Assembly (NCBI RefSeq): GCF_000026945.1
Contig: NC_012860.1
Location: 3,038,001 to 3,102,000, forward strand
Reading direction: 5' to 3'
DNA length: 64,000 nt
From: Candida dubliniensis CD36
Lineage: Eukaryota > Ascomycota > Pichiomycetes > Serinales > Debaryomycetaceae
The notes beneath the pieces are model-generated. The model had not been told where the DNA came from. It did no database searches and was given only the letters and a program-made list of their open reading frames with translations. Positions within the stretch are counted from its first letter, which is position 1. Each line of letters begins with the position of its first letter. Both the position numbers and the translations under genes were made by a program. Below, one piece after another: positions 7,039 through 56,624 of the stretch.

Positions 7039-8801
7039 ATGGACGGTGGTATGTTTATATTTAACTTAGATTTAATTGATTGATTAATCAGTTGGATGAT
7101 TTCATTTCGATAGAGTGTTGTTGTTTAGATCTGGGTGGGAAAAGAACCCATTTCCATTCAGATCAAGTTTTTTGTTGTCGACATAATATTTCTCGTTTGG
7201 GATGTTACTGTCACATTAACACACAAGCTTATAATTTTGAAGTGGTACATCAGGAGTTTGACTACCATTGGATGTGTTCCAATTTAGTGTATTTGTCGTT
7301 CCCCTTTCAATTTCGTGTTTAAGTTTAATTGATTGATTGATTGATCTGTCGGCAATGGTTTCAAACCATTCGGTGAATAATATCATTGATCAATTAAAAA
7401 ACAAGGTTTAATACTTCAATGACAATGTTTAATGTTTTTCAACAAGCGTTTGTGCAAATCAATTGATTCATGATTGCCTTTGATGTTGACGAGTTTCCAA
7501 TTTCGAGTTCTGGTTATCTGACCTATAACAGATTTCCGGTTCATTGTAAATTTTTCGACGTTAGTGCACACAACACACAACAAAAACAGCAACAAAAAAA
7601 AAATATTGTATTGAAACCAACAACTGCAACAAGTCCCCTTTTTTTTTTTAATGACTGTCGTACTAACCCATTTTTTATAGAAGAAGTTGCTGCTTTAGTT
7701 ATCGATAACGGTTCTGGTATGTGTAAAGCCGGTTTTGCCGGTGATGACGCTCCAAGAGCTGTGTTCCCATCTCTCGTTGGTAGACCAAGACATCAAGGTA
7801 TCATGGTTGGTATGGGTCAAAAAGATTCTTACGTCGGTGACGAAGCCCAATCCAAAAGAGGTATTTTGACCTTGAGATACCCAATTGAACACGGTATTGT
7901 TTCCAACTGGGACGATATGGAAAAAATCTGGCATCACACTTTCTACAACGAATTGAGAGTTGCTCCAGAAGAACATCCAGTTTTGTTGACCGAAGCTCCA
8001 ATGAATCCAAAATCTAACAGAGAAAAGATGACTCAAATCATGTTTGAAACATTCAATGTTCCAGCTTTCTACGTTTCCATTCAAGCTGTTTTGTCTTTGT
8101 ACTCTTCTGGTAGAACCACCGGTATTGTTTTGGATTCTGGTGATGGTGTTACTCACGTTGTTCCAATTTACGCTGGTTTCTCCTTACCACATGGTATTTT
8201 GAGAATTGATTTGGCTGGTAGAGACTTGACCAACCACTTGTCCAAGATTTTGTCTGAACGTGGTTACAGTTTCACTACTAGTGCTGAAAGAGAAATTGTC
8301 AGAGACATTAAAGAAAGATTATGTTACGTTGCTTTGGATTTCGAACAAGAAATGCAAACTTCTTCTCAATCTTCTGCTATTGAAAAATCTTATGAATTGC
8401 CAGATGGTCAAGTTATCACTATTGGTAACGAAAGATTCAGAGCTCCAGAAGCTTTGTTCAGACCAGCTGATTTGGGTTTGGAAGCTGCTGGTATTGACCA
8501 AACCACTTTCAACTCCATCATGAAGTGTGACATGGATGTTAGAAAGGAATTATACGGTAACATTGTTATGTCTGGTGGTACTACCATGTTCCCAGGTATT
8601 GCTGAACGTATGCAAAAGGAAATTACTGCTTTGGCTCCATCTTCTATGAAAGTTAAGATTATTGCTCCTCCAGAAAGAAAATACTCTGTCTGGATTGGTG
8701 GTTCTATCTTGGCTTCATTGTCTACTTTCCAACAAATGTGGATTTCAAAACAAGAATACGACGAATCTGGTCCATCTATTGTTCATCACAAATGTTTCTA
8801 A
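7039..8801 (+). CDS. ACT1: actin, spliced (two exons)
   Basis: 376 aa. Exon 1 is only 10 nt (7039-7048, ATG GAC GGT G) and exon 2 runs from 7681 to 8801. Joined, the N-terminus reads [16 protein letters not shown], the standard fungal actin start, and the C-terminus is the universal KCF. Phosphate-binding loops [15 protein letters not shown] and LDSGDGVTH and the hinge and nucleotide-binding residues are intact. It is the sole conventional actin, forming cortical patches, cables and the cytokinetic ring, and providing tracks for the myosin V encoded at 21.5 kb. Third-position choice is strongly biased (GGT, GAC, TTG, AGA), as expected for a highly expressed gene. The first exon is too short to be seen by ORF finding. 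Confidence 0.99.
7049..7680 (+). other. ACT1: ACT1 intron (632 bp)
   Basis: Donor GTATGT at 7049, branch point TACTAAC at 7661-7667 and acceptor ATAG ending at 7680; the intron splits codon 4 after its first base. It is the largest intron but one in the window. It contains GATT-rich repeats near 7075, 7330 and 7388 that can pair with each other, and the species-diagnostic segment 7289-7576. The 3' part is open in the exon 2 frame from 7470, which makes a spurious 443-aa ORF. Confidence 0.97.
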
Positions 8802-33046: not shown

Positions 33047-34060
33047 CTAATTTTTGGTTTTAGAAATACTGCTTCCGTTGATTCTAACACCTTTAATAGT
33101 AACCCCAGTTTCTTCAACAGTAAATTTTCTTGGTCGGCCCCTTCTGTCCTTCTTTTTCAATAATTCTTTTAACTCCAAATCATTGAATCCATCAACTGTA
33201 CCTGAAGAATTGAGCAATACGCTCATATCACTAATAGTAGTGCTGCTCCCATTGGACCTCACATCTTGGTCAATATTACCGTCTTTCAACGCCTTGTTTA
33301 ATTGTTTAAAGTTGGGATGTGTTGAGTCAATCATGGTATTTGTCGAGGGATCAAGTATGAATTTTTTGGGACGACCTCTTTTTTTCTTTCCAGTGGAAGG
33401 ATCTGTTTGATCAACAATTTTTGGAACTACTTGTGATTTATGTGTATTTTTGTGGTCGTTAGATTTACGCTGTTTATGGTTGTCTTCTTGAGTTGAGGAA
33501 GAGGAATGCACTTGATTATTGCTATTTCCCGGTGATGATAACTCACGCGTCTGCTGTCCCTGGGGATGTTGTGAGGAGTTCTGAGAATAATTCTGCAGTG
33601 ACTGTTGGTAATAACTTTGCTGCTGTTGAGGAGGAGGAGGAGATGATGATGATTGTGGAGATTGCTGATATGGTGATGATATTTTTTGAAGTTGTTTTGG
33701 ATCTAATTGTTGAGGTTGATCATTGCGGAAGCCAAGACGCTGGTTTGATGGCTGTGCCTGTTGATATTGTTTTGGTTGACTTCCATAGTTAGGTGGTGGT
33801 ACCCCAGTTAAAGGTGATGTTCCAACAAATGTACGAGGGGGAAGTATACCACCATAGGATAAATGAGGAAGAAGGTTTGGAGCCACATTACTCGGTGTAT
33901 TTCTTTGATAATAAGAATTGCTAGTGACGTTTTGTGATGGCACTTGTTGCAGGTACCCTTGTCTCAAATTGGATTGGGTTGGGGATGTGACTTGAGGTAT
34001 GTTTGTGGATGCATTTCCACTTGAAAGATTATTGTTGCCGCCAGCCTGATACGGATGCAT
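33047..34060 (-). CDS. AT-hook DNA-binding protein with Gln/Ser/Asn-rich N-terminus
   Basis: 337 aa. The first 200 residues are low-complexity, rich in Gln, Ser, Asn, Pro and Tyr (prion-like or activation-domain composition). Two AT-hook cores follow: KKRGRPKKF around 226-234 and RRGRPRKF at about 306-313. Each is followed by a short hydrophobic stretch. Such proteins bind the minor groove of AT-rich DNA and are usually chromatin or transcription factors; the nuclear location is inferred. No zinc finger or other domain seen, and I recognise no named orthologue. The C-terminal 30 residues after the second hook (VEETGVTIKGVRINGSS) look structured and may identify the family. Immediately upstream lies an 86-bp A-rich tract. 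Confidence 0.85.
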   Translation of the reverse strand: MHPYQAGGNNNLSSGNASTNIPQVTSPTQSNLRQGYLQQVPSQNVTSNSYYQRNTPSNVAPNLLPHLSYGGILPPRTFVGTSPLTGVPPPNYGSQPKQYQQAQPSNQRLGFRNDQPQQLDPKQLQKISSPYQQSPQSSSSPPPPQQQQSYYQQSLQNYSQNSSQHPQGQQTRELSSPGNSNNQVHSSSSTQEDNHKQRKSNDHKNTHKSQVVPKIVDQTDPSTGKKKRGRPKKFILDPSTNTMIDSTHPNFKQLNKALKDGNIDQDVRSNGSSTTISDMSVLLNSSGTVDGFNDLELKELLKKKDRRGRPRKFTVEETGVTIKGVRINGSSISKTKN

Positions 34061-34532: not shown

Positions 34533-35786
34533 TCAGTTTGTGATCTTTAACTTGTTGGCAGGGATTTGTGAAAGTAATGAGTTTTCAAAATTCTCAACAA
34601 AAGATTTGGAATCTTGCAATTTATCATCAAATTTGATTTTAAACAGAACATTGACATTGGAAGACCCAGTCTCCAAATATTGAACAGGAGTCAGCAAACC
34701 CAAGATTTCGTCAAAACTGTCTGCTGAAACCTTGTTTTTGGAAGATTGCTCACCGTAGAATTTATACTTGATATCAAAAACTTCAAATCTGTTTTTTGTT
34801 ACCGGTGCAGAAAGTATTTCATCAAACACGTCATATTTGTCGTAAATTGAGGATGCTGTTGGAGACTGAGCAAATTGTGGGAATTTGGAGGCATATGTGT
34901 GTCTGATGGCTGCAGAAATGGATTTTTCAAAAGCAAACTTAAATTTGGATTGGGAAATGTCTTCCCCCAAGTTTGAGGTTAATTCAACTGTAAGAATATT
35001 TTTTGGTTTTGGTTTTTCGACTTTTGCCTTGTCTTCTTTTTGGGGCTTGGTTTCAGCTGATTCTTCTACCTTCGATGGCTCGGCAAGCACTATGTTGGAT
35101 AAATCCAAATGTTCCCTTGATTTTAAAAACTCGGTTAATTCAACAACCACACCTGTATCAATCTTTCCAAGATATGCTAAAACGTCACCTTTCAATATTC
35201 TCCCATTTGGACCAGAAGCTTGAATTTTTATAAAAGCATCTTCGTTCGAAATATTATTTTCATGTAACAACAATTCGACGGCTGGAGACAACTTTTGAGT
35301 TGGATTGGCTTTTTGAAGTACACTTGAATCAGTAGAAAGATCACGAGGACCTGTTTGTTGAACTTCTTTCTTTGTAGTCTTTTCATCTGGCTTTTTCTCT
35401 TGTGAGGCAGGTGCTTGAGTTTCTTTTTTGACGTCTTCTATGCTTGGTTTCTCCAAAGTGCTTAAATCATCATCTTGTTCTGCTAAAAAGGCAATTGGTT
35501 TACCAACTGGTACTCCGGAGGTACCTTCATTCACTAAAATCTCCCATAACTTCCCATCATCGGCTGCTTCGACATCAATAGTGGCCTTATCTGTTTCCAC
35601 TTCCAAAATAGGATCTCCAGCACTGAAAGTGTCTCCTGGTTTTACTTTCCAAGAAACAATACCACCTTCACTCATGGTTGGAGACATTGCTGGCATTTTA
35701 AACACCGATGCTGCATAATAAATCGATGAATTATGAATTGCACGTATCTGGCCTGCTGTTCTTCTGGTGAGGACTGCCCTGAGCAT
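34533..35786 (-). CDS. PDX1: pyruvate dehydrogenase complex protein X (E3-binding protein)
   Basis: 417 aa. It anchors dihydrolipoamide dehydrogenase (E3) to the E2 core of the mitochondrial pyruvate dehydrogenase complex. An Arg-rich presequence (MLRAVLTRRTAGQIRAIHNS) leads to a lipoyl domain (about 27-105) with FKMPAMSPTMSEGGIVSWKV and the lipoylated Lys67 in ETDKATIDVEA. A Lys/Glu/Pro-rich linker (about 110-160) precedes a peripheral-subunit-binding domain (about 165-208) with SPAVELLLHENNI and GPNGRILKGDVLAYL. The C-terminal region lacks the HxxxDG acyltransferase motif of E2, which identifies it as protein X rather than Lat1. Confidence 0.93.
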   Translation of the reverse strand: MLRAVLTRRTAGQIRAIHNSSIYYAASVFKMPAMSPTMSEGGIVSWKVKPGDTFSAGDPILEVETDKATIDVEAADDGKLWEILVNEGTSGVPVGKPIAFLAEQDDDLSTLEKPSIEDVKKETQAPASQEKKPDEKTTKKEVQQTGPRDLSTDSSVLQKANPTQKLSPAVELLLHENNISNEDAFIKIQASGPNGRILKGDVLAYLGKIDTGVVVELTEFLKSREHLDLSNIVLAEPSKVEESAETKPQKEDKAKVEKPKPKNILTVELTSNLGEDISQSKFKFAFEKSISAAIRHTYASKFPQFAQSPTASSIYDKYDVFDEILSAPVTKNRFEVFDIKYKFYGEQSSKNKVSADSFDEILGLLTPVQYLETGSSNVNVLFKIKFDDKLQDSKSFVENFENSLLSQIPANKLKITN

Positions 35787-36995: not shown

Positions 36996-38990
36996 ATGGG
37001 CGTACTAACGAATTTCACAAACTTCAAGACTATCGCGGCAAGCATAAAAAAGTACATACGATTTATTGGGCCGGGGCTAATGGTGAGTGTGGCATATATG
37101 GATCCCGGGAATTACTCAACTGCAGTAGCAGCTGGTTCTGCTTATAAGTACAATTTATTATTTCTGATTCTATTGTCCAACTGTTTAGCCATTTTCCTAC
37201 AAATACTAGCTGCCAAATTAGGTGCTGTAACGGGGTTGGATCTAGCAGCAAATTGCAAGGCTCATTTTGGCTATAGGACGAATTTGATACTTTATGCCCT
37301 CACTGAAATAGCCATCATAGCAACAGACTTGGCCGAAGTGGTGGGGACGGCTATTGCACTAAACATTTTATTTCATATACCCTTATTTGCCGGTGTGGTA
37401 GTCACAGTTATTGATGTGCTAATTGTGCTAATGGCATACCGTCCAAAAGGTCCACTTTTGTTTATACGGATATTTGAGTCATTTGTGTCAGTATTGGTAG
37501 CAGCCACCGTTGTATGCTTTGGGATTGAATTGTACCAAGTGAGTCACGATGCATCAATTCATTTCTCGGTGGCCGAGGTGATGAAAGGTTTCCTCCCAAA
37601 TGAGGATGTTGTTGATATGTCTGACAGAGAAGGAGGCAATGGTTTGTTTTTAAGTTTAGCTATTTTAGGTGCAACTGTGATGCCACATTCTTTGTATCTT
37701 GGTTCTGGGTTAGTTCAAGCAAGATTGAAAGATTACGATATCAAAAACGGATTTCACAAGCCATGGGGTAAGCATTCTCTAGAAGAACCTATACAAGAGG
37801 ACATCACAGTTCACGATGATAACGACAACTTAACTCCAATAGCGACACCACTAATCCAGCATCAGGAACAACCAGGTTTTGAAAAAGATGATGATAGCAC
37901 TTTTGATGGCGATGAAGAAGACGATGATCATTACCGACCTTCGATACATGCGATCAAGGATACCATGAGTTACACTATTGTTGAGTTGGTGATATCCTTA
38001 TTCACGGTAGCCCTTTTTGTCAATGCTGCTATTTTGATTGTTGCCGGTGCTACATTAAGAAGTGGTGATTCAAAGTTTGTTCGAGATGATGACGGACACG
38101 AATCAGACTCTGATTCTGATGACGATTATCAAAATGCCGATTTATTCACTATATATCATTTATTGTCCAAGCATTTGTCGCCAACTGCTGGATTTGTATT
38201 TGCATTAGCATTATTGTGTTCTGGTCAAAGTGCAGGAGTGGTTTGTACTTTGGCTGGTCAAATGGTGTCGGAAGGGTTTTTATCATGGAGTTTACCGCCT
38301 GTTACTAGAAGATTGATCACAAGGGCATTGGCTATTGCTCCCTGTCTTTTTGTTGTGAGTTTTTCAGGGAGAGAAGGATTAGCTAAAATTTTGAATGCTA
38401 GTCAGGTGGTGTTGTCAGTTTTGTTACCAGTTGTTAGTGCTCCTCTTATTTGGTTCACATGCAACAAACATACCATGAGGGTCCCCATTTTTGTAAGGGA
38501 TGGTGACGAAGAGATTGATATGGAGTATGATGGAGAACAGACCACCCTGGTAGTTACATCGAGATTTAAAAGTTCTGAACCAGCAATCAGATTACAAAAT
38601 TTACGTAATTCTCACCCTTGTGCTAGTTGGGAAGATGACGACGATGAACAACAGCATTTACAAAATGAAGAGAACAGATTGTTGGTTGGTGAAAATACCA
38701 CTAATTTGGTTTATTCACTGCCACCAACATCGAACTTAATGTCTCGATCAAACTCCGTGTCTGCAACAAATGCCGCAACAGATAGTCTGTCGTCTTCCAG
38801 CACCGCTACACAACTTCCGATAGAAGTCTATGAGGATCTCAATCAAGATATTTTCCGAATCAAAGGATATAAAGATTTTAGCAATAGTTTGGCTACATCT
38901 TTTGTGGCGGTGTTGGTTTGGGTATTTGTTGCCTTTTTGAATTTATACTTGATTGGAAGTATGCTCCTTGGTTATGACGTACCATTGTAA
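36996..38990 (+). CDS. SMF3: NRAMP metal transporter, Smf3-like (vacuolar iron)
   Basis: 664 aa from the ATG at 36996. Natural-resistance-associated macrophage protein family; proton-coupled import of Fe2+/Mn2+, and Smf3 in baker's yeast mobilises iron from the vacuole. The metal-binding motif DPGNY starts at Asp36 in helix 1, and MPHSLYLGSG marks helix 6. Blocks such as AIIATDLAEVVGTAIAL, CSGQSAG and EGF-SWSLPP match yeast Smf3 closely, more than I expect for Smf1/Smf2. Unlike yeast Smf3 (473 aa), it carries an acidic Asp/Glu-rich insertion between helices 6 and 7 (about 245-305), another acidic loop before helix 8 and a Ser/Thr-rich tail insertion near 545-600. It has eleven or so membrane spans. 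The 3' end converges on the next gene with 85 bp. Confidence 0.92.
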   Translation: MGVLTNFTNFKTIAASIKKYIRFIGPGLMVSVAYMDPGNYSTAVAAGSAYKYNLLFLILLSNCLAIFLQILAAKLGAVTGLDLAANCKAHFGYRTNLILYALTEIAIIATDLAEVVGTAIALNILFHIPLFAGVVVTVIDVLIVLMAYRPKGPLLFIRIFESFVSVLVAATVVCFGIELYQVSHDASIHFSVAEVMKGFLPNEDVVDMSDREGGNGLFLSLAILGATVMPHSLYLGSGLVQARLKDYDIKNGFHKPWGKHSLEEPIQEDITVHDDNDNLTPIATPLIQHQEQPGFEKDDDSTFDGDEEDDDHYRPSIHAIKDTMSYTIVELVISLFTVALFVNAAILIVAGATLRSGDSKFVRDDDGHESDSDSDDDYQNADLFTIYHLLSKHLSPTAGFVFALALLCSGQSAGVVCTLAGQMVSEGFLSWSLPPVTRRLITRALAIAPCLFVVSFSGREGLAKILNASQVVLSVLLPVVSAPLIWFTCNKHTMRVPIFVRDGDEEIDMEYDGEQTTLVVTSRFKSSEPAIRLQNLRNSHPCASWEDDDDEQQHLQNEENRLLVGENTTNLVYSLPPTSNLMSRSNSVSATNAATDSLSSSSTATQLPIEVYEDLNQDIFRIKGYKDFSNSLATSFVAVLVWVFVAFLNLYLIGSMLLGYDVPL

Positions 38991-39075: not shown

Positions 39076-40605
39076 CTACAAAGAGTATCGGAATCCTGTA
39101 TTTTCAAAATCAGTCAAGCCTTTGAATCCATCTAATAATGCTTGTTCTGCAATTTGTTCATTGTAACCACCTTGTTCCAAGTTTCTCTTTCTGTTACGAT
39201 GCATAAAAACTAATCTTATTGCTATTGCCAAAACCATTATTCCACAATAGCTAGAAATTAGGCCAATTATACCACTACGGTATTTGGGTGCCTCTTTCGC
39301 ATAAAAGATATTTGGTGATATTATGTTGCCAGCGGCATACATAACAAACCAAACTCCATTAGCTATGGTTTTCTTTGAAGACCCTGACACATTGGCATTC
39401 AATAAAATCCAACACAAGATAACTGGTCCCCCAATGATAAACTGCAAGAAAGAACAACCAACTAGAGCCCATCTGTGTGTTAATGGAATAACATGGAGAC
39501 CAATGAGACCAGCCAAAGGTGGAATACAAATGACAAATAAAACTATGCAACGCATGTTCTTGACTGTAAAGACAACAATACCAGCAGCTACCACGACCAC
39601 TAATTCTACTGCACCAAGAGGCATTTGTAATGCTGTTGCTTGAATTCCTGTGAATCCGAATCCTTTGATTAATGAAGATGCAAAATTTGACGTCCCACCA
39701 TTGATTACTCCGCATGCAAGACCAATCAATGCAACAAAATATACAAACAAATCTTGTAATGCTTCAATTGCTTGATTCTTTTTAAATTTGGAATCTCCTA
39801 AACCTTGATTATTAGTGGCTACCTCTTTGATTAAAACAGCTTTTTCATCCTCAGTTAAGAATTTAACCAGTTTAGGTGAATCAGGACATAACCAAAGAAA
39901 AATTCCTGACCAAACAAAGTTCATAAGACCAATAACCAAGAAAATCAATTTCCATATTTTCAATTTTGATTCATCGGCATGTCCAAGCCCCCAACTAAGA
40001 AGTGACCCCACGATAGTAGCTACCCCATTGAAAGATAAGAAAATACACATTCTTAAAGGTTGGTTTTTCACAGTATAGAAATTGTTACAAATTGCCATAC
40101 ACGAAGGACTAATCATTGATTCAAACAATCCCAAAAGAAATCGAATCACCAAAATGCCACCATAATTTTGCAAACCAATATGACCAATCAAGATAATAGA
40201 CCACAAGAACAACATACATCCAGTGAATTTAGCAACGGGTAATTTTTGAATAACATAGTTTGCTGGTAATGCTCCAGCAAGATAACCAAAATTGAAAATG
40301 GCAGCACACCATGAATATCTTTGACCATACAAGTTCAAATCTTCTTTTAAAGTATAAGCAGCGGCATAATTTAATGATAATTTGTCTAAGAATTGTAATG
40401 TATATGTTATACACAATAATGGAACAATTCTCATATCCACTTTCCAAACCACTTTTTTCCTGATTGCTTCTTCCTCTTCTAGAGAGAGTTCTTGAGCTTT
40501 TTCATAAAATTCAAATCCTGTTGTTTTGTTTTCGGAAATAGTGGAAGCTGATACGTTAATTGCTGTGCCAGATTTTTCCAAATCGGTTTTTCCATTTAAT
40601 GACAT
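39076..40605 (-). CDS. major facilitator permease, Dal5/allantoate (ACS) family
   Basis: 509 aa with twelve predicted membrane spans and cytosolic ends. Anion:cation symporter subfamily of MFS, the group of yeast Dal5 (allantoate, ureidosuccinate, small peptides) and other carboxylate permeases. Landmarks are RIVPLLCITYTLQFLDKLSLNYA at helix 1, IRFLLGLFESMISPSCMAICNNFY at helix 4 and WSLLG-type loops. Candida has a large set of these permeases (DAL genes); in C. albicans I believe this one was named DAL7, but the substrate is not shown by sequence. Two GATAAG sites lie in the promoter (40718, 40771), which fits control by GATA factors of nitrogen catabolite repression. Confidence 0.85.
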   Translation of the reverse strand: MSLNGKTDLEKSGTAINVSASTISENKTTGFEFYEKAQELSLEEEEAIRKKVVWKVDMRIVPLLCITYTLQFLDKLSLNYAAAYTLKEDLNLYGQRYSWCAAIFNFGYLAGALPANYVIQKLPVAKFTGCMLFLWSIILIGHIGLQNYGGILVIRFLLGLFESMISPSCMAICNNFYTVKNQPLRMCIFLSFNGVATIVGSLLSWGLGHADESKLKIWKLIFLVIGLMNFVWSGIFLWLCPDSPKLVKFLTEDEKAVLIKEVATNNQGLGDSKFKKNQAIEALQDLFVYFVALIGLACGVINGGTSNFASSLIKGFGFTGIQATALQMPLGAVELVVVVAAGIVVFTVKNMRCIVLFVICIPPLAGLIGLHVIPLTHRWALVGCSFLQFIIGGPVILCWILLNANVSGSSKKTIANGVWFVMYAAGNIISPNIFYAKEAPKYRSGIIGLISSYCGIMVLAIAIRLVFMHRNRKRNLEQGGYNEQIAEQALLDGFKGLTDFENTGFRYSL

Positions 40606-41439: not shown

Positions 41440-43618
41440 CTAAGCATCATAAGTAGTTGAAGAAACATCACCACCTCTACCGGTCCAGTTGATGTGAATC
41501 CATTCATCTTTCTTCAACAAGTCGTTTTCTTGACCTGGCAAGACTTTGAAAGTATGAGCACCAAAGTAATCTCTTTGAGCTTGCAACAAGTTAGCTGGTA
41601 ATCTTTCAGATCTTAAACCATCGTAGAAGGCCAAAGCGGTGGAGAAGGCTGGAGTTGGAACACCATATTGAATAGCTTTAGCAACAGAAGCTCTCCATCC
41701 AGATTGAGCTTTGGTAATAGCTTCGTTGAAGAATGGGTAGAGCAACAAGTTTTCCAAGTCTGGTTTCTTTCTGTAGGCAGCAGTGATTTCAGCCAAGAAA
41801 ACAGATCTGATAATACAACCACCTCTCCACATCAAGGCAATACCAGCATTGTTCAATTTCCAGCCGTAATCTTTAGCAGCTTGGTTCATCAACATGAAAC
41901 CTTGGGTGTATGAGATAATCTTAGAAGCATACAAAGCTTGTTCCAAATCGTCAATGAATTGTTGTTTGTCAGTGATTGGTGATTCACCAGAAACTTCTGG
42001 ACCTTTCAAGACTTTAGAGGCTTCAACTCTTTCTGGTTTCATGGCAGAAAGACATCTAGCAAACACAGCTTCACCAATCAAAGTAACTGGAATACCCAAA
42101 TCAAGAGCATTGACAGCAGTCCATTTACCAGTACCTTTTTGACCAGCAGTGTCCAAGATTTTTTCAACCAAAGGTTTACCGTCAGTTGGGTCGTTGTAGT
42201 ATAAAATGTCTCTGGTGATTTCAATCAAGAAAGAATCCAAAACACCCTTGTTCCATTTGGCAAACACGTCACCAATTTCTTTGTCGTCAAATTTACCGAC
42301 TCTCTTCATAAGATCGTAAGCTTCACAAATCAATTGCATATCACCATATTCAATACCATTGTGGACCATCTTGACGTAATGACCAGCACCGGCATCACCA
42401 ACCCAATCACAACATGGTTCGCCATCACTCTTGGCAGCAACATCTTGGAAGATATCCTTAATGTGTGGCCAAGCTTTTTCGTTACCACCTGGCATCAAAG
42501 ATGGACCAGTTCTAGCACCTTCTTCACCACCAGAAACACCAGAACCGACAAACAAAATACCTTTCTTGGCCAATTCTTCGTATCTTCTATTGGAATCTGG
42601 GAAATGGGAGTTACCACCATCAATGATGATGTCACCTTCTTCCAAGTATGGCAATAATTGGTTAATGAATTCGTCGACTGGGGCACCAGCTTTGACCAAA
42701 AGCATAATTCTTCTTGGTCTCTTTAATTGGTCAACCAATTCTTTGATGGAGTGAGCACCGAGGATGGATTTACCTTTAGCTTCGTTAGCTAAGAAACGAT
42801 CAACCTTAGCGGTGGTTCTGTTGTAAGCAACAACAGTGTAACCGTGGTCAGCCATGTTAAGAATCAAGTTTTGACCCATAACGGCTAAACCAATTAAACC
42901 GATATCACCTCTAGCAATGGAACTGTTAGTATTGTTGAACGATATTTGTTTCGACAAGATTGATAATCTTGACAAGGCATTCAAGTTTTTCATTTTCCTG
43001 ATCGTTTTTTTTTTATCTCGTTAATATTTGATAGATATGTAGACCCCTCCAATTACATGAAAAAAAAAAAAAAAGAAAATACTTGGGAATCATGATCAAA
43101 GGGAAATTTAGATGAATATTTAAATAAATCCTTCCTCCCTCCTCCCTCTCCACCGTTAGTCCCATTTTAATTAGTCTTGTTGCATTTTTTTTTCTCTTGC
43201 TTGTGCGCTAGTTCGGAAATCGGCCTGAAAGGAAAAAAAAATATATATATTTTCGGCGTGAGGGAGAATTTTCCAGCAATGATTAAATGTTGAAAAAAAA
43301 AAAAGCAAGCAAGGGGAGAATGAGTGTGAAATTTCTCCAATTCCCCTGTAAATGATAAACGGATCACATCTTTCCCCATTTAGAATTGGATTAATCAGAT
43401 TATTGGTTTGAAACCAATTGTAATAATAAACATATATCGTAATTAGATTTCATTTCTTTCAATTGTCCAATTAATTGTAACTTATCAAGATCACATTCAA
43501 TTTTCTCTTCATAGGAAAGATGTCAAACTATCGGATAAAAAAAAACGAAAAGTAAAAAAGAAAAAAAAAAAAACAGAAACTAAATGGAATAGCTAACATA
43601 CTTTGGAGCTGAAGACAT
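41440..43618 (-). CDS. GND1: 6-phosphogluconate dehydrogenase, spliced with alternative 3' splice sites
   Basis: Oxidative pentose phosphate pathway: 6-phosphogluconate + NADP to ribulose-5-phosphate, CO2 and NADPH. Exon 1 is 17 nt (43618-43602, ATG TCT TCA GCT CCA AA). Using the acceptor at 42911 (branch TACTAAC just upstream) the product is 495 aa and starts [18 protein letters not shown], the cytosolic form. Using the upstream acceptor CAG at 42998 (weaker branch TATTAAC) gives an in-frame 524-aa form. Its added segment contains RLSILSKQI, which resembles a PTS2 peroxisomal signal. NADP-binding [12 protein letters not shown] and the catalytic [13 protein letters not shown] are intact. For C. 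albicans, dual cytosol/peroxisome targeting of Gnd1 by alternative splicing is established; the sequence here shows the same arrangement. An ATG at 42993 gives an unspliced 517-aa frame. Confidence 0.96.
42911..43601 (-). other. GND1: GND1 5' intron (691 bp, or 604 bp with the upstream acceptor)
   Basis: Donor GTATGT at 43601. Distal acceptor TAG at 42911 with a consensus TACTAAC; proximal acceptor CAG at 42998 with TATTAAC at about 43020-43026. Both keep the reading frame. Between them lie 29 codons that specify the PTS2-like leader. Confidence 0.9.
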
Positions 43619-46932: not shown

Positions 46933-48525
<1,593 letters not shown>

Positions 48526-48728: not shown

Positions 48729-51700
48729 TCATTTTTCTATGTATTTTGCCCTACTTTTTAATGCCTCAGCAAATACCATTGCTAATGGCCAAACAGGTAC
48801 ATCAGCTAATATCCTAATCCCCAAATAAATTGATTTCATTGAGATTTTACTATCAATAAGACCTTTTCTGATTTCTTGATTTATTTGTACCAACTTGGAT
48901 TGATTATTTTCCACATCAATTCCTTCTGACAATGCATCATCACAGCTTTCTCTTTGTAAAATCAATTCTCGTAACTTCCCAACTACTTTTGTCTCATCAT
49001 TGAATTTATTCTTGAAATCTTTCGTTAAATCTTCCAGATAAGATGATCTGATACTCACACTTAAAATTGTCTCTAATTTAGAAAACAATTCTTGACAATC
49101 AAACCAACATTCCAACTCTTGATTGGTAATCTCTCTTTCAAGACTATTCCTTTCAATATGGTTCAAATAGGTCGCTACTAATATCACACTAACAAATAAA
49201 GTGCAACAGAAGAATGCTGGGGTGCGTCTAGCAGTTTCTCGAACATCGTAATTGATGGTTTCCATATTATACATCCATAACTCAAGAATATCACGGCAAT
49301 GAGGTAATGAGGTGGTTAGGACGTTGTACTTGCGTTCTCGGTACACTAATCGGTCCAAATCACTATTCATAGCAGTCCAATCCCTTTGAAGAACCGATGA
49401 TACTGCAAAAGTTAGTCTTACTTCTAATTTCATTTTCACCAATGCAAGCATGGGGAGTATTAATTTCAATTCATGTTTAGAACTAAGGCTGCCTCTGGTG
49501 CTAGTAATAATTTTTGAACTGCCATGGTTCTGATGAAATAAAACCTCCCAGTTCATGATTAAAGCTTGTAAAGGCTTCTTCTTCTCTAACCACCGTAAAT
49601 GAGTAAATGGTTGTACGGTATCAACGGCTTTGATTATTCTTTCATGGATGGTGAATAACAAAACAAGCAAATTGTTATACGAAATTGGTGTGTTGACATT
49701 TGTTGGGTCGTTTAAATAAGACACTAATGCGTCTATACCAGCACCATTGCTTACATCAATTAATGACCACTTGCTGGAGTAGGTTTGTCCCACTAAATTA
49801 TACCATCTGCTAGATCCTTCACACCACCATAATTTCTCATTGGTACAAAATGATCCACTTTTGAGCATATTAAAGCTGAAAAGAATAGGAACTCCGCCAA
49901 AAGCAGACCTAAAAGCTTGCAAAAAATAAAAAACGTGTAAGGTACGAATTCTAGATTGAGCCATAATAAAATAATCAAAATTCTTTTGAATCAATGATTT
50001 ATCTCCAGCTGAACCAGGAATTGCTGGTTGAGGTGGGATTATTAATTTCTCTAAAGGTTCATTAAAATTAGTGGACTTGATCAATCCAATCATTGATTTG
50101 ATTTGTCTCGAAGTGATATCCATCATATTAGGTTCATTGAGGAAAAGCGATATGAAAATATGCAACACAAGACATTGGTGAGCCATTAATGGGACTTTTT
50201 TGAAATGCAAATTATTTAATGTGATTTCTTTTTCAAAGAAATTTTGAATGTGAAATTTGGATAAGTTGAACAAGATTAAAGGATCATTGTCATGGTAAGC
50301 ATATAACGCTCCAATAGCAGCAATGGCTAACAACAATGGAACAGTTTCAAAATTTTGGTTTTTAGAATTTTTCAACGAAGGTAAATGTATAAATGGAAAG
50401 TACTTGTTAAAACCATACTCATATAATTGGAAATAACGTTTCAAATCTGACAATGAAGGCAAATCTTTGTCCTCAATATTACTCATGGCAAGAATTTTAT
50501 TTCGAAGTTCTTCAGTGATAAGTGTAGCATCTTCCAAGAAAAAACTAGTAGGATACTCTACTGAAAAATCAGCAACACTGTTAATATGAGTACGCATGGC
50601 CAGTGGAATTTCGTTCCCATTGTTTTTCGCAGTAAGCATCGGTTTATGATTGAAGTTGCCATTCATTTGTTGTTGATTCAACTGTTTACGGTAATTATCG
50701 TTTGTATCCGCCAATAAGCTTGTGGGGCCAAAGAAACCTTTCAAATCTTCAGAACTGGCGTGAGCACTAAAAGGTATATTCAAATCAAATGGCGGGAAAA
50801 CAAGATCCCTAAACCAATCATTCTGGTTTGGTTCTTCGAGTTTTTTGGGCTGGTTTAATTGTTGAGGGTTGATGCTTGCTTTTGAGGAGACAGAATTCAG
50901 ATGCGAGTTTGGAGGCAGATGTTGTTGTTGTTGTTGTTGTTGCGATCCTGGAATTATTGAGGGTGTGATATCTGACGCCAGTGAATGCTTTATTGGTGGG
51001 TGCTGCTGTGGTTGTTGTGGCACCGATTGAGTAATTATTTTATTGTTCATATCATTGTTTGAATGCAAACCATTAATCCCTGCACCAAACAAAGAAGATT
51101 GTGGATGATGCATTGATGAAGCTTTTAAGTTATCAGTGAAGAAATCATGCAAATTCTTGATGGATTTCTGTTTCATAGCTACCTTTCCTTCATCGTTCAA
51201 ATCCAAATGGTCAATAGTGTCCCAATCTAATAAGCCATTTGATTCTAATAACTTACCAAAATCTTCATTCTGGGGCCCAAATTGAGGAGTGGCAAATTCA
51301 ACTTGACCGGAAATACCAAAAAAATCAGCCTCCTTGAAACTAGAGTAGCACGGCCCTGATGCAGCAGAATAAGATGCGTGTCTATAATTATTGCTCAAAT
51401 GTGAAGGAATGCCATTATTATTCCCCATTGGAGAAGCTGAGGGTTTGAACTTTTTCAATTGCGGAGAATCTGGGGTCGGTTGTTGTTGTTGTTGCTGTTT
51501 AACACGACTATTGCTTCTGGATTCTTGTTTTGTTTCTATTTGATTTGCTGTTGTTGGTGTTGGTTGTATTGGTATGCCAGGTGCCGTGTTTGCTGTTGTT
51601 GGAGGAGTATTTGAAGGTCCAAAAGATACACTATCACGGTGGTGACTACTATGAAGTGTTATGCTGGGTCTTGGTGAGTTGGACATAGAATTGGCCTCAT

Positions 51701-52226
51701 CATCAATAATGATAGAACTTGCTGGAGCATGAGGCAGACCAGTGGTCGGATTATTTTCAAAAAGCGAGGTTCTAAACACTGGTTTTTCATTGTCCAAGCT
51801 TGCTGCTGGACAAGTTCCGTCAGGTAATGGGGCGTTGGCATTAGTATTATTGTGTAACACATTAATATGTTCATTTATCTCTCCGTCTTTCGAGGATCCT
51901 CTTCGTATTACGTGGGGTAAATCTGTGTGCAATTTTTGTTGATGTCTCAATACTAAATCTCGACGAGCAAAACATCGACCACATGCAGCACATTGGTAGG
52001 GTTTCTCGTTGGTATGGGCTCGTTCGTGACGTTTCAAATGTTCTAAACGGGCAAAGGCTCTGGTGCAGATAGTACAAACATGAGGTCTTGGCTTGTCAGT
52101 TCTGATTTGTTGGGATTTTTTGGGTATTGGTTGTTTAGGTATTGGAGGCATAAGGTCCAGCAGTATTGAACCATTGGACATAGTGGATAGCGGTGAGTTT
52201 ACCGAAACTGAAGGTTGCATATTCAT
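48729..52226 (-). CDS. ZMS1: C2H2 zinc-finger transcription factor with fungal regulatory domain
   Basis: 1165 aa. Two adjacent C2H2 fingers near the N-terminus: C51-C54-H67-H71 and C79-C82-H95-H100, linked by the TNEKPY linker. Finger residues (RLEHLKRH, RRDLVLRH) match the Adr1/Rsf2/Zms1 group, which reads C-rich sequences such as CCCC. A long Asn/Gln/Ser/Pro-rich region (100-560) precedes a helical fungal transcription-factor middle homology region (about 600-1000; YGFNKYFPFIHLPSL start). The C-terminal part is helical. The symbol ZMS1 is from memory of the C. albicans gene at this position; orthologues in baker's yeast (RSF2/TDA9) control growth on non-fermentable carbon. Located in the nucleus. 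The very large upstream spacer fits a regulated factor gene. Confidence 0.88.
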   Translation of the reverse strand: MNMQPSVSVNSPLSTMSNGSILLDLMPPIPKQPIPKKSQQIRTDKPRPHVCTICTRAFARLEHLKRHERAHTNEKPYQCAACGRCFARRDLVLRHQQKLHTDLPHVIRRGSSKDGEINEHINVLHNNTNANAPLPDGTCPAASLDNEKPVFRTSLFENNPTTGLPHAPASSIIIDDEANSMSNSPRPSITLHSSHHRDSVSFGPSNTPPTTANTAPGIPIQPTPTTANQIETKQESRSNSRVKQQQQQQPTPDSPQLKKFKPSASPMGNNNGIPSHLSNNYRHASYSAASGPCYSSFKEADFFGISGQVEFATPQFGPQNEDFGKLLESNGLLDWDTIDHLDLNDEGKVAMKQKSIKNLHDFFTDNLKASSMHHPQSSLFGAGINGLHSNNDMNNKIITQSVPQQPQQHPPIKHSLASDITPSIIPGSQQQQQQQHLPPNSHLNSVSSKASINPQQLNQPKKLEEPNQNDWFRDLVFPPFDLNIPFSAHASSEDLKGFFGPTSLLADTNDNYRKQLNQQQMNGNFNHKPMLTAKNNGNEIPLAMRTHINSVADFSVEYPTSFFLEDATLITEELRNKILAMSNIEDKDLPSLSDLKRYFQLYEYGFNKYFPFIHLPSLKNSKNQNFETVPLLLAIAAIGALYAYHDNDPLILFNLSKFHIQNFFEKEITLNNLHFKKVPLMAHQCLVLHIFISLFLNEPNMMDITSRQIKSMIGLIKSTNFNEPLEKLIIPPQPAIPGSAGDKSLIQKNFDYFIMAQSRIRTLHVFYFLQAFRSAFGGVPILFSFNMLKSGSFCTNEKLWWCEGSSRWYNLVGQTYSSKWSLIDVSNGAGIDALVSYLNDPTNVNTPISYNNLLVLLFTIHERIIKAVDTVQPFTHLRWLEKKKPLQALIMNWEVLFHQNHGSSKIITSTRGSLSSKHELKLILPMLALVKMKLEVRLTFAVSSVLQRDWTAMNSDLDRLVYRERKYNVLTTSLPHCRDILELWMYNMETINYDVRETARRTPAFFCCTLFVSVILVATYLNHIERNSLEREITNQELECWFDCQELFSKLETILSVSIRSSYLEDLTKDFKNKFNDETKVVGKLRELILQRESCDDALSEGIDVENNQSKLVQINQEIRKGLIDSKISMKSIYLGIRILADVPVWPLAMVFAEALKSRAKYIEK

Positions 52227-55200: not shown

Positions 55201-56142
55201 CCTGTACTATTACCAATGGTGATAACAAAACATGAAACTGTTGATTAAGCACCAAATAAGCAACAAAGAGAAGAAAAAAAATGTTAGCAACTGACACGTT
55301 TGTTGTATGAAGTTAGATATTTATTTTTTTCTTTTCTTTTTTTTTTTTTTTCATATTTTTGTTGGGTCGACACAGAATATTCATTATTTTTCTTTTTATG
55401 GTATATTATATATGCTTTATTTCCTATGTGGCGATGTCAGCTAAGATTAGTATGGGTGTTTTAAACTAAGGTTTATACTAATCAAGTTAAAGGTTCAGAC
55501 ATTTCCTCTAATTTTTTTTTTTTTGGTGAGTTTATAAATGCGTGCGTATTATATTTGAAACTAAAGGAGGGACGACAACTAGTGTTGAGCCGGAGCGGGG
55601 CGGCATTTCATGGAAAAAAATCAAAAGAGGAAAAGGAAATTGATTTCCGAAATTTGGGGCATATTCATTTGTGTTAACAACAACAATAAGTACAAGGAAG
55701 TGTATAACTATAAAAAGCTGAATGTATGCTGAGGTGATAGTATCAAATATTCCCGTATTTTTTTTGTTATCACCGCTCTTGAATAGAGCAATAAGCTTTT
55801 TTCATAGTATTTTCCAGTTTAACATGATTTCAATAAGCTATCACAGTAAGATCTTTTCAAGATTAAATGATTGATCTGTATTTATAACATTTTTATTAAT
55901 ACAAATCTAGACCCGGCTTTTCTATTTGTCACAACTCCAATGATCAAATAAATTTTGGTGTATAATTATTCCAAAAACCATCAAAAAAACAAACCAAACC
56001 AGAAATCTTCCTCACAACAACATCATCACCTACTTGAGCACACTCCTATTACATAAAATACATAATACTCTCGTGTTACACAATTCTTAGTAAGTCAAAA
56101 AAATAAAAGTCTTCATGTTAGATAATGGAAAAAAAAAGATTA
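52227..56142. other. 3.9-kb gene-free region upstream of the zinc-finger regulator
   Basis: No protein gene recognised. Contents: A/T homopolymers; a CT microsatellite (about 53008-53036); an imperfect tandem repeat and inverted repeat (54100-54160); and dispersed CAA/TAA repeats. It probably consists mostly of a long promoter and 5' leader for the zinc-finger gene, a common arrangement for Candida regulators. Confidence 0.5.
54100..54160. repeat. two-copy tandem repeat with terminal inverted repeat
   Basis: Unit CCCCAGATTT...GCTTTTCTTTTTT occurs at 54100-54126 and 54127-54151 (27 and 25 bp). The second copy begins with CCAGATTT (54129-54136), which is complementary to AAATCTGG at 54153-54160, so an 8-bp stem can form. 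Confidence 0.75.
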
Positions 56143-56215
56143 TGGACGAGATAAGAGTCGAACTCATGACCTTTCCCATGCTAAGGGAACGCGCTACCAA
56201 CTACGCCACACGCCC
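56143..56215 (-). tRNA. tRNA-Ala (anticodon AGC)
   Basis: 73 nt, no intron. The acceptor GGGCGTG pairs with CTCGTCC (one mismatch and one G-U). The D arm has AGTTGGTAG; the anticodon stem TTCCC/GGGAA encloses TTAGCAT with AGC at 56182-56180. The T arm is ATGAG-TTCGACT-CTTAT and the discriminator is A73. Sequence up to the variable loop is nearly that of yeast tRNA-Ala(AGC); A34 would be edited to inosine. A run of T on the minus strand directly downstream (about 56128-56137) is the Pol III terminator. Confidence 0.97.
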
Positions 56216-56624
56216 ATTTTACAAACTTCTAAATTACACACAATTAGACAATCAAAAATAATGAAACCTAGCCTTATATTTAGTTGACAATGCAAGGCCT
56301 TCCATTATTGACGCTGATTTTTGGCGAAACATCAATAAACTCTACTTAGGTCACTAGACACTTATAAGCTGAGTTGTTTTCTCATCTCATTTAGCAAAAT
56401 ATACATTCAGTTTTGCACTGGATATCATACCAAAGTAAGGAAGAGGATCCCGTTAAAAGTCTAGGCGTAAAAATATATTATTATTAATATTAATAGTAAT
56501 TAAAGGTAATATTTGAAATATTTAATTAAGTACGGGTATATATAACATGATGGGTCATGTATATATGTTAATCTATTGTGTGTAAATGTGTAAATATGAG
56601 TGTCAGCAAGACATAAAAAAAGGA
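56216..56624. other. intergenic: tRNA 5' flank / LCB2 3' region
   Basis: 409 bp; AT-rich, with TTAT/TAAT repeats near 56476-56500. No gene or LTR recognised. Confidence 0.5.

Follow-up and report, generated by a model that had tools for sequence, protein, structure and literature searches.

In Candida dubliniensis, GND1, the gene for 6-phosphogluconate dehydrogenase, carries in its sequence one 5' splice site and two in-frame 3' splice sites, the upstream of which includes a stretch with a PTS2-like motif that is conserved in GND1 of relatives. We consider it likely, with a probability of about 0.86, that these nested sites compete, and that the choice between them would yield either a cytosolic enzyme or a peroxisomal one bearing PTS2. 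Splicing at the consensus TACTAAC/TAG site would remove the PTS2 stretch, and the cytosolic enzyme that results is presumably the main product; splicing at the upstream TATTAAC/CAG site would retain 29 extra residues with the PTS2, and Pex7 would carry this form of Gnd1 into peroxisomes for NADPH production there. We infer the use of both junctions, the import of the long form and the dominance of the short one. Such a switch has been published for C. albicans, so the locus is the orthologue of an already known event. What is new here, and might be unexpected to a specialist, is the apparent wider distribution of the switch and the trace that its splice signals seem to leave in the protein.

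Splice-site anatomy of GND1

The window analyzed is a 64,000-nt stretch of contig NC_012860.1 of strain CD36, and its features are collected in Table 1. The first-pass annotation had joined the donor at 43601 to an acceptor at 42998 or 42911, both in frame, which is correct to the base: joining exon 1 to 42997 gives an in-frame product of 524 aa, and joining it to 42910 gives an in-frame product of 495 aa that is 29 aa shorter and has the N-terminus MSSAPKGDIGLIG. The short form, MSSAPKGDIG, is also the annotated form in C. viswanathii (P0004). The donor is the sole GTATG on the minus strand within 43660-42860, and without splicing the frame of exon 1 runs into a TAG within the intron. The identity of the product as 6-phosphogluconate dehydrogenase is established by the domains PF03446 (172.7 bits) and PF00393 (432.9 bits); its top match among solved structures is 2p4q, and it shares 97% identity with a C. 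albicans cluster, a value that, along with the 92% of the neighbouring zinc-finger protein (Table 1), suits the sister species C. dubliniensis.

Table 1. Features of the GND1 locus and other genes in the window (positions are those of the window)
Feature	Position	Strand	Details
GND1 gene	43618-41440	-	6-phosphogluconate dehydrogenase
Exon 1, coding part	43602..43618	-	17 bases = MSSAP + 2 bases; ATGTCTTCAGCTCCAAA
5' splice site GTATGT	43596..43601	-	common to both forms
Long (PTS2) form intron	42998..43601	-	604 nt; putative use
Short (cytosolic) form intron	42911..43601	-	691 nt
TATTAAC, putative branch point	43020..43026	-	for proximal acceptor
Proximal acceptor CAG	42998..43000	-	
TACTAAC, branch point of distal acceptor	42925..42931	-	N-T-N in long form
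Distal acceptor TAG	42911..42913	-	AG = first two bases of AGA (Arg) codon in long form
Long-form-specific stretch	42911..42997	-	87 nt, 29 residues
In-frame ATG, possible alternative start	42991..42993	-	within long-form stretch
PTS2-like RLSILSKQI	42943..42969	-	
Exon 2	41440..42910	-	common to both forms; 6-phosphogluconate dehydrogenase body + stop
Actin intron (yardstick)	7049-7680	+	donor GTATGT 7049, TACTAAC, TAG acceptor 7680; 14 nt branch-acceptor; 632 nt
Synaptobrevin intron (yardstick)	5458-5382	-	donor GTATGT 5458, TACTAAC, acceptor 5382; 12 nt branch-acceptor
Protein without Pfam match	33047-34060	-	
Lipoyl/E3-binding protein	34533-35786	-	
Nramp metal transporter	36996-38990	+	
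MFS transporter	39076-40605	-	
ATP sulfurylase	46939-48525	+	
C2H2 zinc-finger protein	48729-52226	-	92% identity to nearest cluster; next rows 63% and 65%
tRNA-Ala (anticodon AGC)	56142-56216	-	sole Rfam match at gathering score in window

The branch points that had been assigned, TATTAAC to the acceptor at 42998 and the consensus TACTAAC to that at 42911, were both located, with the branch A 23 nt from the proximal CAG and 15 nt from the distal TAG. Two further introns of the window served as yardsticks. One interrupts the actin gene (7039-8801, plus strand) after its tenth coding base, and the other is the short intron of a synaptobrevin-like SNARE gene (5545-5133, minus strand), both exons of which fall below the 150-aa threshold of the open reading frame list; both gene families were confirmed. 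The distal GND1 site resembles these introns in its branch sequence and spacing, and the proximal site departs from them in both. The proximal acceptor is also A-rich, with a pyrimidine fraction of 0.34 over the last 41 nt versus 0.49 for the distal one. Because the distal site is yardstick-like and the proximal site weaker, we infer from these signals that the short, cytosolic form would be the default.

TACTAAC is not enriched within the window (9 found vs 6.6 expected), and 87-nt open frames are not unusual in the shared part of the intron: of 511 stretches of this length, each read in its own starting frame, 163 are open. The first count was rejected as evidence and the second is weak evidence, and the weight of the argument therefore rests on placement and conservation. 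RNA structure near the two acceptors was below the shuffle-mean stability (z 0.96). Two other acceptors were considered and judged unlikely, namely an AAG at 42968, which keeps the frame without a stop, and an AG at 42923, likewise in frame without a stop, which is 3 nt from the branch A. The AG of the former (42968-42969, minus strand) lies within the PTS2 Arg codon, and its product would still carry K-L-x5-Q-I. A G-rich run, GGTGGAGAGGGAGGAGGGAGGAAGG, was observed in the GND1 intron at 43154-43130 (minus strand), directly after a GACTAAC, and may form a quadruplex or mark a third branch region; the in-frame joins to AGs near this run that were translated all hit a stop.

The PTS2-like motif and the splice signals read as protein

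The 29 residues predicted to be gained by the long form were found to contain RLSILSKQI, as proposed. The PTS2 consensus near the N-terminus is printed in the available portion of PMC7214817 as (R/K)(L/V/I)x5(H/Q)(L/A); the motif fits its first three fixed positions, and the Ile at position 9 lies outside it. Ile is also found at this position in 5 of the 29 motifs of relatives among the matches listed. When the locus's own 28-residue extension was shuffled 100,000 times, 0.57% of the shuffles gave a PTS2-like match under a wide pattern, which was defined post hoc, once the relatives' rows were known. The extension is identical to that of C. albicans at 26 of 28 residues.

Relatives were collected by two protein searches, the best 120 of 8000 scored candidates from each giving 126 proteins, or 127 rows with the window. 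The core GLAVMG stands near the N-terminus in 109 of these rows and is absent there in 18. At least 12 residues precede the core region in 47 of the 109, and removal of 7 near-duplicates (including the window) left 40 listed extensions. Among these, the published PTS2 consensus occurs in 16 (shuffle mean 0.26, maximum 3 in 2000 shuffles) and the wider form in 29 (mean 0.34, maximum 4 in 2000 shuffles). Thr-Asn stands at most 9 residues from the core in 35 (mean 3.4, maximum 10), and the final residue is Arg or Ser in 38 (mean 9.8, maximum 19). All three marks, with PTS2 in its wide form, coincide in 28 of the 40 (mean 0.0045, maximum 1). In all these comparisons the shuffles overstate independence, because the rows share descent. 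At least one mark is missing in the other 12; among these, P0060 (Wickerhamomyces mucosus) and P0078 keep Thr-Asn and Arg/Ser and lack the PTS2 H/Q, and P0055 has the PTS2 without Thr-Asn or Arg/Ser.

The recurrence of Thr-Asn and Arg/Ser may be explained by the splice signals themselves. The distal TACTAAC had been placed inside the coding sequence of the long form, and it is indeed read there as aaT-ACT-AAC, or N-T-N; the distal TAG is read as gcT-AGa, or A-R. Both distal signals can therefore be recognized in the long protein. If relatives are read in the same way, the codon before Thr-Asn has to end in T and the one before Arg/Ser in a pyrimidine, so that K, Q, E, M and W could not stand at these positions. 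Among the matches listed, these five residues occur in 0 of 35 positions before Thr-Asn and 0 of 38 before Arg/Ser, versus 11.8% of extension residues. The implied branch-acceptor distances in the 35 listed rows are 9 nt (19 rows), 12 nt (11), 15 nt (4) and 6 nt (1), for comparison with 12, 14 and 15 nt at the distal-type sites in this window. Read from the proteins alone, the relatives' Thr-Asn and Arg/Ser would thus correspond to the distal branch point and acceptor. The long (P0024) and short (P0030, MSAPT) records of Yamadazyma tenuis share 486 of their 487 aligned residues, as would be expected of two readings of one gene.

Alternative explanations for the long form

An in-frame ATG inside the extension, at 42993, lies 5 nt past the proximal acceptor; it is kept in C. 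albicans (P0001) and was absent, as a second route, from the first-pass annotation. Because of this ATG, the proximal splice is not strictly necessary for the extension, and a start inside the intron could yield the peroxisomal form without it, in some yeasts if not here. The PTS2 form might then come mainly from transcripts starting inside the intron and translated from this ATG, with a choice of promoter or start deciding between the forms and splicing giving the short form only. The weak proximal splice signals are compatible with such an origin, as is the narrow spacing in relatives, where the nearest Met is 2 or 5 residues ahead of the PTS2 Arg in 19 of the 29 listed PTS2-bearing extensions; but these rows are open reading frame calls, and some Met is guaranteed by the way they were collected. 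The proximal acceptor, moreover, matches the frame of exon 1 exactly, and the C. albicans work is cited as demonstrating alternative splicing in the available portions of PMC3798809, PMC7426172, PMC7214817 and PMC9549241. We regard intron-internal transcripts as an unlikely main source of the PTS2 form at this locus.

The same weak proximal signals, together with the Ile at PTS2 position 9, would be expected if the proximal acceptor were splicing noise, the PTS2-like string a product of chance or decay, and the short protein alone of importance. PTS2 loss does happen, as P0060 and P0078 attest, but the scarcity of matches among shuffles of the extension itself, the wide PTS2 in 29 of the 40 listed extensions of relatives and the near identity of the extension to that of C. 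albicans make this explanation very improbable. A mitochondrial presequence, with a switch between cytosol and mitochondrion, is suggested by the basic and hydroxylated residues of the window's extension and by its lack of acidic ones. The pattern that recurs in relatives, however, is the PTS2 R-L-x5-H/Q-L, Glu is present in 3 of the 29 nine-residue motifs among the matches listed, and the excerpt of PMC3798809 refers to the form in C. albicans as peroxisomal; a mitochondrial role for the extension seems hardly credible. The switch between cytosol and peroxisome through alternative 3' splice sites, as originally proposed, fits the anatomy of the locus, the C. albicans precedent and the conservation of the extension, and it remains our preferred reading.

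Precedents and taxonomic spread

Dual targeting of C. albicans GND1 through alternative splicing was reportedly described by Strijbis et al. in 2012. That paper stands in the reference lists of PMC11323467, PMC8151747 and PMC4207609, as far as their available portions go. The event, which had been brought forward as established in C. albicans, is backed by excerpts of PMC3798809 and PMC7426172, according to which alternative splicing there yields an isoform with a PTS2, and of PMC7214817, which also credits it to "related ascomycetes"; the accessible text of PMC9549241 takes up GND1 splicing or dual targeting. In the portion available of PMC3597508 (2013), GND1 splicing is entered as described in one genus, and for most of the fungal events the list names a single species, genus or family. 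The open-access titles and abstract openings listed contained nothing on the Thr-Asn trace or on GND1 splicing in Wickerhamomyces, which is no proof of absence.

The closest comparison is C. albicans GND1, an orthologous gene (97% identity) in which an N-terminus with a PTS2 is gained through the choice of splice site and whose extension is nearly the same; its PTS2 ends in Leu, whereas the putative one of C. dubliniensis ends in Ile. From its excerpted text, PMC7214817 describes the same enzyme in Ustilago maydis, pgd1, with a PTS2, RISSLAAQL, upstream of the main start and a minor peroxisomal isoform, but that isoform arises by non-AUG initiation at about 2% and not by splicing. Alternative splicing also parts a cytosolic from a peroxisomal isoform in malate dehydrogenase of Yarrowia lipolytica (excerpts of PMC3798809 and PMC7426172), although the signal in that case is a PTS1 and the difference between the introns amounts to four nucleotides (PMC3798809, in the same excerpt).

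Listed extensions with all three marks come from Candida, Spathaspora, Yamadazyma and Wickerhamomyces. All three are carried by 33 of the 125 leaves of a midpoint-rooted FastTree built from the Gnd1 body. One 54-leaf clade (support 0.96), with Candida, Spathaspora, Yamadazyma and [Candida] railenensis, holds 29 of them; the other 4 belong to a distinct 7-leaf clade (support 0.99) with Wickerhamomyces ciferrii. In the NCBI taxonomy W. ciferrii, listed as Hansenula ciferrii, belongs to the Phaffomycetales (class Saccharomycetes), and the Serinales (class Pichiomycetes) include both C. dubliniensis and Y. tenuis; the marks thus extend over two taxonomic classes. Rows of Saccharomyces, Kluyveromyces and Lachancea among the matches listed start 0 to 5 residues ahead of the core, although a short row without extension may reflect annotation or a missing upstream ATG and not absence of the switch. 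We lean slightly toward the view that the GND1 switch is not specific to Candida and is either ancient, predating the split between Pichiomycetes and Saccharomycetes, or was gained twice, with no sign of it among the Saccharomyces, Kluyveromyces and Lachancea proteins listed. As its signals would be written as a Thr-Asn...Arg/Ser linker, dual-spliced orthologues may be recognizable from the protein alone.

At the level of sequence signals, the locus confirms the published switch in a sister species, which bears out, for these signals, the conservation claimed at the outset. The wider pattern, if true, would mean a conserved alternative splicing event across budding yeasts. Because one coding stretch also holds the branch point and the acceptor for the other isoform, selection on splicing would be traceable in protein databases.
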